Shown piece after piece: positions 26,878 through 29,421 of a stretch of 64,000 nt of DNA. The translations under genes were made by a program, and so were the position numbers. Each line of letters starts with the position of its first letter. Position 1 is the first letter of the stretch. Origin of the DNA: Bacteroidota bacterium (GTDB taxonomy: Bacteria > Bacteroidota > Bacteroidia > Chitinophagales > Chitinophagaceae). Under the pieces are notes generated by a model that worked only from the letters and a program-made list of their open reading frames with translations, did not search any database and had not been told where the DNA came from. The stretch covers positions 434,001-498,000 of the forward strand of contig JACPEA010000011.1 of NCBI GenBank assembly GCA_016183765.1, in the 5' to 3' direction.

Positions 26878-28923
26878 TCAAAACTGGTAAGAAGCCATCA
26901 TCACCCAGCTTCTGCCCGGTGAGTTCAGCGGCAGGGTGGAACTGATATAGCGACTCAGGTGTTCTTTATATGTTTGGTTGAACAGGTTCTGAACAGCCAA
27001 TGTGAACTGCAGTTTTGCTGCCGGCCTGATATTCAGTCCCAGGTCAGTAACTGTAAATGCTGCCGTAGTTTTTTCATTGAATGCAGTGGAAACCCGGTTC
27101 TGTTCAAACGAATGACGAAGGCTGATATAACCGGTGATCTTATTTTTATACAGATCAGCCTGCAGTTTATTCCTGAGTTCAAAAGGGTTGATCTCGGGCA
27201 GTGGCTGGTCCAACTCCCTGTTTTGTCCCCTGGTATAAGTAGCGCTGAGCTCATTACGGATACGGCTGCCAACCTGCTGCCCCCAATGAAATTCAAAACC
27301 TGTCAACCGCGCATTACTGATATTGATAAACCTTCTTACGCCCGGTGCTGTTGACACCACTGGTTTTAGGGTAGGATCAACCACCGAACTGATGAAGTTC
27401 TGCACGGAAGATGCAAAGAGGGTCACCTGCAGACTGGTAGATTGGTTTTTATAAGCCAGTATCAGATCCAGTTGCGTATTGGCTTCGGGTTTCAGTTGTG
27501 CATTGCCCACTACTTCATAGGCATCCAGCCCAACAGGAATGAAATTGATGAATTTTTCCGTGATACTGGCACTTCTCACGCCCCGTCCCAGCCATAATCC
27601 GGCCTGGAAGGATCTGGAGAAAATGCGGTTGATACCGGCACTGATGCTGGGGTTCAGATCAGCTGTTTCCAGCTTGGTATTGGTGCCGGCGTATTTGGTG
27701 CTTACTGCATTGGGTTTTGCATGAACCAGGTCTAACCTGGAAGAAAGGGTGAATTCATATTTTCCGATGGTCTTGTCAAAGTGGCCAAAAAAGCCGGTAT
27801 GCAACAGGGAAGCTTTTTGCCACAAAGTGTCTGTAAAGGTTTTACCCGCCATCATACCGGTGATCATGGTCCGGGTACGGTTGCCATTGGCATATTCATA
27901 TTTCAGGTCGGCACCCAGGTAGAGGGCCTGGTTATTTTTTTTGATCTGGAACTCTGTCTTGCCGCCGGAGGTCTGGGTATTGGAGAACACATGACTTAAC
28001 ATGGTGGCAGAAGCCGGACGTAAACCATTGCCCATCTGGTGGTCAACAAAGGAAGTAAATACCTGTGTGTTCCACTGGCTGTACCATCTGTTGGTCGATC
28101 TTATCTGGTACTTTCCCTGGATCATCCAGGTATCATCGCTTAACAGATCCATCATCAATGTGGGGAAAGAAGTGTTGCGCGCAAAATTCCGGGTGATGTT
28201 AATAGAAGCCACCTGGTTTTGTTTCACCTGGTAAGCTGCATTCAGGTTGATAGCGCCGCGATTGAATACAGCGGGAATGATGGTGCCGTTGCCATCTTTA
28301 TAATCCCGTCCGTTGGAATACGAACCAGCCAATGACACTTGTGTATTTTTCCCCCTCATTCCGATCTGTCCTTCTGTCCGGAAGATGTCTCCGTTGGATT
28401 CACCACCGATATTGATCCTGCCGAACATTTCTTTTTGTGAACTGAATACAGGTTCTGCTGTTTTGAAATTGACCACTGCACCTGTAGCGGGTCCAAAACG
28501 AAAATTGTGTGGTCCTTTGATCACTTCGATCTTTTCTACCTGGTTGATCATGACCTGGCTGCTGGGCGGGTCCATCCGGTTGGGACAGGCGGCATGTGCG
28601 GTCAGTCCGCCATCGTTGAGGATGCTTACCTGCTCCCACTTGAAACCACGGAATACGGGATCAAATCCAAAATCGCCGCTTTTCCGGATCGAAGAAAAAC
28701 CAGGTATCTGCAACAGCACTTCACCGGCATCATGTTTTACCCAGTCGGCATGTGTCAGTTTCAGGGATTTATGGGTGGGTTTGCCTTTCAGGGCATATAC
28801 ACTAACGGGACTGAGGGTTTCAACCGTTGAATCGTTGAAATTATTATTTTGTGCGGAAGCTGTTTGGGTATACAATAACAGTGCAAGCACCCCCACAAAG
28901 AGGCTTGTGAAATTCGTTTTCAT
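26878..28923 (-). CDS. TonB-dependent copper receptor, OprC/NosA type
   Basis: 681 residues: signal peptide (ALLLYTQTASAQ), plug and barrel ending in RSWVMMASYQF. The plug contains AACPNRMDPPSS with Cys113 and Met117; in Pseudomonas OprC the same C-x3-M pair binds copper, so copper import is well supported. Length is normal for this subfamily and there is no carboxypeptidase-like domain. A small Cys-rich membrane protein gene starts the same transcription unit 59 bp upstream. A palindrome upstream of that gene suggests redox- or oxygen-linked activation, consistent with copper demand for respiratory enzymes. Confidence 0.9.
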   Translation of the reverse strand: MKTNFTSLFVGVLALLLYTQTASAQNNNFNDSTVETLSPVSVYALKGKPTHKSLKLTHADWVKHDAGEVLLQIPGFSSIRKSGDFGFDPVFRGFKWEQVSILNDGGLTAHAACPNRMDPPSSQVMINQVEKIEVIKGPHNFRFGPATGAVVNFKTAEPVFSSQKEMFGRINIGGESNGDIFRTEGQIGMRGKNTQVSLAGSYSNGRDYKDGNGTIIPAVFNRGAINLNAAYQVKQNQVASINITRNFARNTSFPTLMMDLLSDDTWMIQGKYQIRSTNRWYSQWNTQVFTSFVDHQMGNGLRPASATMLSHVFSNTQTSGGKTEFQIKKNNQALYLGADLKYEYANGNRTRTMITGMMAGKTFTDTLWQKASLLHTGFFGHFDKTIGKYEFTLSSRLDLVHAKPNAVSTKYAGTNTKLETADLNPSISAGINRIFSRSFQAGLWLGRGVRSASITEKFINFIPVGLDAYEVVGNAQLKPEANTQLDLILAYKNQSTSLQVTLFASSVQNFISSVVDPTLKPVVSTAPGVRRFINISNARLTGFEFHWGQQVGSRIRNELSATYTRGQNRELDQPLPEINPFELRNKLQADLYKNKITGYISLRHSFEQNRVSTAFNEKTTAAFTVTDLGLNIRPAAKLQFTLAVQNLFNQTYKEHLSRYISSTLPLNSPGRSWVMMASYQF

Positions 28924-28982: not shown

Positions 28983-29354
28983 TCAGGCTGCCTGTGGGGG
29001 GTGAAACAGATTCAACGATACATCAATGGTGGTATTGATATTCCTGTGGGTGTATATTGTTGTGTGAGAAATGGTTGGTGAACAGACTGTGGCAAAAAAG
29101 CTTTTTGAACTGATCACTTCTTCGGTAAATCCCGTTTTTCTTTCGGGCGCCTGTTTGTCTTGTGTGCTGCTGTCCTGATCCAGTTTCTTCTGTAACTGGC
29201 AGTGACCATTACATTTCAGTTTGGGTTTTGCCTTGTTGATACAGTTCTTCAGGTAAACCTCCCGGTTAAACTGGTAATCGGCATAGTACAGCATTTTGGA
29301 ATAGTTACTGGCCAGCAGTGAAAGAAGGATCCATATAACGGCAAACTGTTTCAA
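28983..29354 (-). CDS. Small Cys-rich membrane-anchored protein, copper-locus associated
   Basis: 123 residues starting at TTG. One N-terminal hydrophobic segment (FAVIWILLSLLASNYSKMLYY) is followed by YADYQFNREVYLKNCINKAK and KCNGHCQLQKKL, giving Cys38, Cys48 and Cys52 with His51, a plausible metal site. Small proteins with a C-N-G-x-C motif are frequent beside TonB copper receptors in Bacteroidota; their function is not established. As first gene of the operon it lies downstream of the TGA-N6-TCA palindrome and a perfect -7 box. A role in copper handling is inference. Confidence 0.7.
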   Translation of the reverse strand: MKQFAVIWILLSLLASNYSKMLYYADYQFNREVYLKNCINKAKPKLKCNGHCQLQKKLDQDSSTQDKQAPERKTGFTEEVISSKSFFATVCSPTISHTTIYTHRNINTTIDVSLNLFHPPQAA

Positions 29355-29376
29355 AATAACAGGCTGATTTCAGAGA

Positions 29377-29421
29377 CAAAGATAAAACCTGCCATGGCAG
29401 ATAATATGACCAGGGTCATAT
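29377..29421 (-). promoter_or_regulatory. Promoter with Crp/Fnr-like operator for the copper-receptor operon
   Basis: On the minus strand a perfect -7 box TATCTTTG lies at 29384-29377. No TTTG -33 box is present at the usual distance. Instead a perfect palindrome ATATGACC-AG-GGTCATAT (29404-29421) carries the TGA-N6-TCA core of Crp/Fnr family sites, and its centre is about 40 nt upstream of the expected start, the class II activator position. A second perfect palindrome, CTGCCATGGCAG (29389-29400), lies between the two. Regulator identity is inference. Confidence 0.6.

Follow-up and report, generated by a model that had tools for sequence, protein, structure and literature searches.

A predicted FNR/Crp-type operator likely couples a copper-receptor operon to respiratory genes in a Bacteroidota bacterium

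In the window (the whole stretch of 64,000 nucleotides of Bacteroidota DNA analyzed here), an operon coding for a small protein and an OprC-like copper receptor is preceded by a perfect palindrome at positions 29404 to 29421, which lies, relative to the predicted start, at the class II position of a Crp/Fnr-type activator site. We consider it likely that this palindrome is an FNR/Crp-type activator operator of class II, coupling the copper-receptor operon to nosZ, cbb3, and heme genes. The site, its spacing, its conservation, the architecture common to respiratory genes, and the co-occurrence with an FNR-like regulator (regulator A) were computed, and from these we infer that A binds and activates and that the signal is O2 (or NO). 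The cell probably turns on copper import jointly with the enzymes that use the copper.

Results

(i) Site and promoter. The Crp/Fnr core is TGA-N6-TCA, and class II activators are positioned with their center near -41.5. The predicted operator, ATATGACC-AG-GGTCATAT (29404..29421, not assigned to a strand), is a perfect 8+2+8 palindrome that encloses the 14-bp core ATGA-N6-TCAT (29406-29419). A Bacteroidota -7 box (TAnnTTTG), TATCTTTG, lies 21 nt downstream of this core on the minus strand (29377..29384), and its position predicts that the operon transcript starts near 29372. In Flavobacterium psychrophilum, according to an excerpt of PMC9723704, the -7 box has been mapped to -12 to -5, which would center the palindrome at -40.5, while the usual 22-nt spacing gives -41.5. 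At the -33 position upstream of the predicted start we found ATTATC, with no TTG or TTTG. An earlier note on this DNA had described a perfect 8+2+8 palindrome with TGA-N6-TCA about 40 nt upstream of the start, a missing -33 box, and the textbook position of a Crp/Fnr activator; the palindrome is borne out, its distance and the missing box are as claimed, and the position holds, judged by the predicted -7 box, both for the spacing of 21 nt in the window and for the 22 nt of its relatives. The same note had pointed to a second palindrome, CTGCCATGGCAG, which is indeed present between site and box (29389-29400), but it is broken in L025, whose receptor is 92% identical, and absent in L026. We rejected it as an operator, and it may be a chance product.

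The palindrome on its own is unremarkable, since 3 perfect palindromes of the 8+2+8 form are found in the window, where 1.15 would be expected. The combination of TGA-N6-TCA with TANNTTTG after 20 to 25 nt was found once in the window (0.04 expected), and 4 of 100 first-order Markov shuffles contained at least one. The genome has a single exact copy of ATGACCNNGGTCAT, which is not enriched genome-wide when up to two mismatches are allowed (224 versus 212 for the control), so the extended form was dropped as a regulon motif in favor of a core-plus-box pattern. As the 18-mer is both unique and unenriched, the conserved part is the ATGA...TCAT core at a fixed spacing and not the full 18-mer.

(ii) Conservation among related operons. 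Among 60 relatives, 2 of the other 59 genomes have close orthologs of the receptor, and the genome collection has 9 loci, making 10 distinct operons (the duplicate L003/L033 counted once) and 11 with the window. All 11, window included, have ATGA-N6-TCAT 21 to 22 nt before a TAnnTTTG-like box, and in all 10 besides the window the site is directly upstream of the small-protein gene. The inner six bases vary symmetrically (CCCTGG in the window and L025, CTCAGG in L026, and TTTGAA in Sediminibacterium and Sphingobacteriia bins), and the spacer diverges along with them while core and box stay. When 7 of the 11 operons are aligned, most of the columns that do not vary are those of the core (ATGA, TCATA) and the box (A, TTTG), the first base of the box deviating in several relatives (CAACTTTG, CAATTTTG, GATATTTG). 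The position of the site is thus phylogenetically fixed in close relatives.

A search of the order at E values up to 1e-80 gave nine distant receptors, with 12 of 298 genomes positive. One of the nine distant operons has the exact arrangement (L108, with a perfect site, 22 nt, and TAATTTTG), one has it in part (L105), one has a dyad at 18 nt (L104), and the remaining six are without the site. One exact case in nine weakens the generality of the arrangement and counts against the proposed explanation.

(iii) Genes of the operon. The first gene (28983..29354, minus strand) codes from a TTG start for a protein of 123 amino acids with a CNGHC motif and an FHPP tail, for which no Pfam or NCBIfam match was found. 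Its family conserves a hydrophobic N terminus, CxGxC, and a C-terminal HPP, and five members gave no match in Pfam. Distant genomes, too, have the small protein together with the receptor (L101, L103, L104, L105, L107, L108, and L109), and it is a candidate periplasmic copper handler.

The second gene (26878..28923, minus strand) codes for an OprC-like TonB-dependent copper receptor of 681 amino acids, with CPNRM at 113 to 117 and HQM at 295 to 297. Both motifs are invariant in the ortholog alignment and in register with OprC (6fok), and a profile of three orthologs retrieved from the PDB, at E values up to 1e-10, only OprC, in an alignment that matches ACPNRMD and DHxM. In OprC, copper is bound by C143/M147 and H323/M325, which form a CxxxM-HxM motif (PMC8610252, in excerpt). 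The best NCBIfam match of the window receptor, TonB copper receptor TIGR01778, scores 214 bits against a cutoff of 472, so we name the receptor OprC-like. Of the OprC/NosA type claimed for it earlier, the CxxxM-HxM ligands are conserved, while the TIGR01778 cutoff is missed. According to the same excerpt, OprC and NosA of pseudomonads are made under anaerobic conditions and copper represses them, and a nosA knockout in another strain of P. stutzeri left NosZ unaffected (PMC8610252), which counts against the proposed explanation.

Upstream, a major facilitator superfamily (MFS) transporter gene (30669-29452, minus strand) runs in the same direction and ends 31 nt from the site. An MFS gene is likewise found upstream of the site in L025 and L026.

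(iv) Link to nitrous-oxide reductase. NosZ is found in 10 of the 12 receptor-positive genomes and in 111 of the 286 others (one-sided Fisher P of 0.0027, or 0.012 without G000 and G229, with phylogeny ignored). In G151, which belongs to a distant family, the small protein and the receptor end a nos cluster (L140:13178-15951), coming on the same contig after nosZ, NosL (assigned by Pfam), and NosD-, NosF-, NosY-, and RIC-like genes. This arrangement is a direct genetic link of the receptor to N2O reductase. The exact site is absent from this operon, and its lack in such a setting counts against the proposed explanation.

(v) A predicted redox-rich regulon. We searched the own genome of the window with the pattern ATGAN6TCAT-N17-24-TANNTTTG, using the reversed pattern as a control, and obtained six matches against one. 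They precede hemA, ccoS-ccoN (cbb3), the window operon, a GH30 glycosidase, a Crp/Fnr gene (regulator B), and a fasciclin-type lipoprotein; hemA and GH30 were confirmed, and the names ccoS and fasciclin are what we take these genes to be from reading their sequences. Searched at a spacing of exactly 22 nt, one mismatch being allowed, the genome has 12 matches against 1 in the control, compared with 15 against 0 in G062 and 16 against 2 in G063. Among the further targets in the own genome are a universal stress protein and pyruvate phosphate dikinase. Divergent from gene B, the clade II nosZ operon has ATGATTTAAATCAG 23 nt before TATATTTG. Family tests in the own genome gave 935 bits for clade II NosZ (cutoff, 625), 434 for NosD (300), 216 for RIC (204.7), 1292 for CcoN/O (1080), and 412 for CcoG (317). 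The earlier note had asked for such sites near denitrification, oxidase, or fermentation genes, and they are present at nosZ, ccoS-ccoN, hemA, pyruvate phosphate dikinase, the universal stress protein, and the Crp/Fnr gene.

Among the 60 relatives, the spacing peaks at 22 nt (21 of the 150 matches listed; P of 3e-8 against a uniform distribution, the genomes being related). In 60 family genomes, 71 sites have the pattern at exactly 22 nt against 1 in the reversed control, and 30 of the 60 genomes carry it. We read 29 exact 22-nt loci, 28 of which have a downstream open reading frame (ORF), and family testing covered 17 of these ORFs. Among the 17 are hemN, four c-type cytochromes, CoA-transferases, and an Rrf2 regulator, together with a ccoN whose ORF is a cut-off fragment scoring just under the cutoff of its model. 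The 17 also include a decarboxylase, malic enzyme, and a CBS protein, and some had no match. With cytochromes and hemN next to decarboxylase and malic enzyme, the regulon is redox rich and not purely respiratory, and the targets without a clear link to respiration (GH30 glycosidase, decarboxylase, and malic enzyme) count against the proposed explanation.

Some further loci deserve mention. The GH30 glycosidase, which is endo-1,6-beta-glucanase-like and would not be expected among the targets of a respiratory regulator, has in three genomes (L037, L046, and L067) a site of the ATGACAAA type at 22 nt. In Sediminibacterium (L040, L043, L048, and L052), an ATGATTA(A/T)ACTCAT site at 22 to 23 nt is followed by a YHS-domain protein, the domain being confirmed for L052, and by a gene that we read from its sequence as having a metallo-beta-lactamase fold. 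A membrane-type protein of 410 amino acids, coded between gene B and RIC, has a 22-nt site of its own (L070:12374-13606, L145:8472-9704, and L152:1559-2344), and the two members tested have no Pfam or NCBIfam match.

(vi) Candidate regulators. The genome codes for six cNMP-domain regulators, one of them FNR-like and beside cbb3, in line with the Crp/Fnr regulator that the earlier note asked for. This is regulator A (own genome C15, L072:13412-14113), which is coded upstream of a copper ATPase and ccoN, an order also seen in G063, G011, and G060, where the gene names were read from sequence. Its best model, NCBIfam Fnr, gives 97 bits, below the cutoff of 228, and we therefore term it FNR-like and not FNR. 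Aligned to a solved FNR-type regulator, its CxxC and core-domain cysteines are in register. The 16 aligned rows of A, duplicate genomes included, all have the cysteines of CxxC and of FCINSG/YCINSG as well as one at the place that we take to be C122-like, assuming the ligand numbering of FNR. The third FNR-like N-terminal cysteine is asparagine in Sediminibacterium, which counts against the proposed explanation. With A as the query against 22 genome handles (some of them the same genome twice), a match including the N terminus was found in all eight distinct site-bearing genomes tested; in G151 and G268, which have the receptor and no exact site, the matches start at residue 14 or later, the best ones at 28 and 23. 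A also occurs in several genomes without the receptor, a further point against the proposed explanation.

Regulator B, of 198 amino acids, is coded beside nosZ, has a class II site in its own promoter, and has E--IR of the recognition helix in common with A. Regulator C (L070:9059-9760, Cys-rich) was set aside; with A as the query, it has no clear counterpart in G062 and G063, which keep the site, and it is probably not needed. A would be the likeliest activator, favored about twice as strongly as B.

Discussion

In the mechanism that we propose, A would bind the palindrome as a dimer at about -41 as oxygen falls. The bound protein would overlap the place of the -33 element, contact RNA polymerase, and activate the TATCTTTG promoter, so that the operon of the small CxGxC protein and the OprC-like receptor would be induced with nosZ, cbb3 oxidase, and heme genes. 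By this joint induction, the cell would import more copper as it makes its copper enzymes for N2O and low-oxygen respiration. In F. psychrophilum, cbb3 and heme genes are reported to go up when oxygen is limiting (PMC9723704), which fits an O2-linked mechanism of this kind.

Other explanations differ in which protein would use the site and in whether it is an operator at all. It is rather unlikely, although worth serious consideration, that the site is bound chiefly by B, a DNR/NnrR-like regulator without the CxxC cluster, in which case the signal would be NO or another N-oxide and not O2. B is located between the nosZ operon and the RIC gene, carries the site itself, and has the recognition residues of A. 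However, G309 retains the copper site with a B-like ORF of only 149 amino acids, and so does G017, where no second match was found at E values up to 1e-12 (A, not B, being the query), and control by O2 is a better fit to the cbb3 and hemA targets. We regard as improbable a copper-responsive regulator of another family that uses the palindrome independently of respiration. Copper control is to be expected somewhere, given the copper repression of OprC/NosA in pseudomonads described in the excerpt of PMC8610252, but nosZ, ccoS-ccoN, hemA, and a Crp/Fnr gene are preceded by the same core at the same spacing. The TGA-N6-TCA of the site is, moreover, the core of Crp/Fnr sites.

It seems very improbable that the palindrome is instead an RNA hairpin or a transcription terminator that follows the MFS gene. 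It does lie 31 to 48 nt past the MFS stop codon, and RNA pairing is possible for both palindromes, but the folding is no better than that of shuffled sequences (z of -1.12, with 33 of 200 shuffles folding equally well) and leaves this reading unsupported, a T-run is absent after the palindrome, and the site is kept in Sediminibacterium despite a different upstream gene. Chance symmetry is harder still to credit: about one perfect 8+2+8 palindrome is expected per window, but the site is kept at a fixed spacing in all 11 distinct close operons, and its architecture recurs genome-wide.

Taking the palindrome as an FNR/Crp-type operator, we can go one step further, quite tentatively. Copper import in Bacteroidota might be a built-in arm of a low-oxygen/N-oxide regulon, in which an FNR-like activator whose set of cysteines is altered controls an OprC-like receptor and small CxGxC/FHPP envelope proteins of a new family that hand copper towards NosZ and cbb3 oxidase. 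If so, the supply of copper would set the capacity for N2O reduction. A predicted operator and a candidate regulator are now at hand for a low-oxygen regulon of Bacteroidota, and copper uptake would be tied to NosZ, the remover of the greenhouse gas N2O. The promoter grammar (ATGA-N6-TCAT, 22 nt, TAnnTTTG) is usable for regulon prediction across the order, and a partner of copper receptors, so far without a name, is brought to light.

Comparison with known systems

In the open-access literature, we found no account of such a regulon in Bacteroidota. The class II promoters of FNR and CRP in Escherichia coli have a TGA-N6-TCA dyad near -41.5 and a weak or missing upstream hexamer. The promoter described here differs from them in its TAnnTTTG box and in the outer bases of the site, which are ATGA and not TTGAT or TGTGA. 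Another system to compare is that of Nitrosophilus labii, which belongs to another phylum than Bacteroidota. As here, Crp/Fnr control has reportedly been proposed for its clade II nosZ (PMC11539149). The OprC/NosA proteins of pseudomonads are likewise CxxxM-HxM receptors, and theirs are expressed anaerobically (PMC8610252, in excerpt); the window receptor is a distant relative, below the TIGR01778 cutoff. A parallel in regulation is Brucella melitensis, for which a comparative study of 2005 predicted NnrR control of nosA (PMC1274295). There, as we predict here, a regulator of the Crp/Fnr family would control a copper receptor of the outer membrane with a link to N2O reductase. B. melitensis is an alphaproteobacterium with another promoter type and regulator, and the part of that study available to us does not mention a small CxGxC partner. 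Crp/Fnr control of a nosA-type receptor is, on the evidence of that excerpt, already predicted in Brucella, and what we propose is its counterpart in another phylum and with another promoter type.
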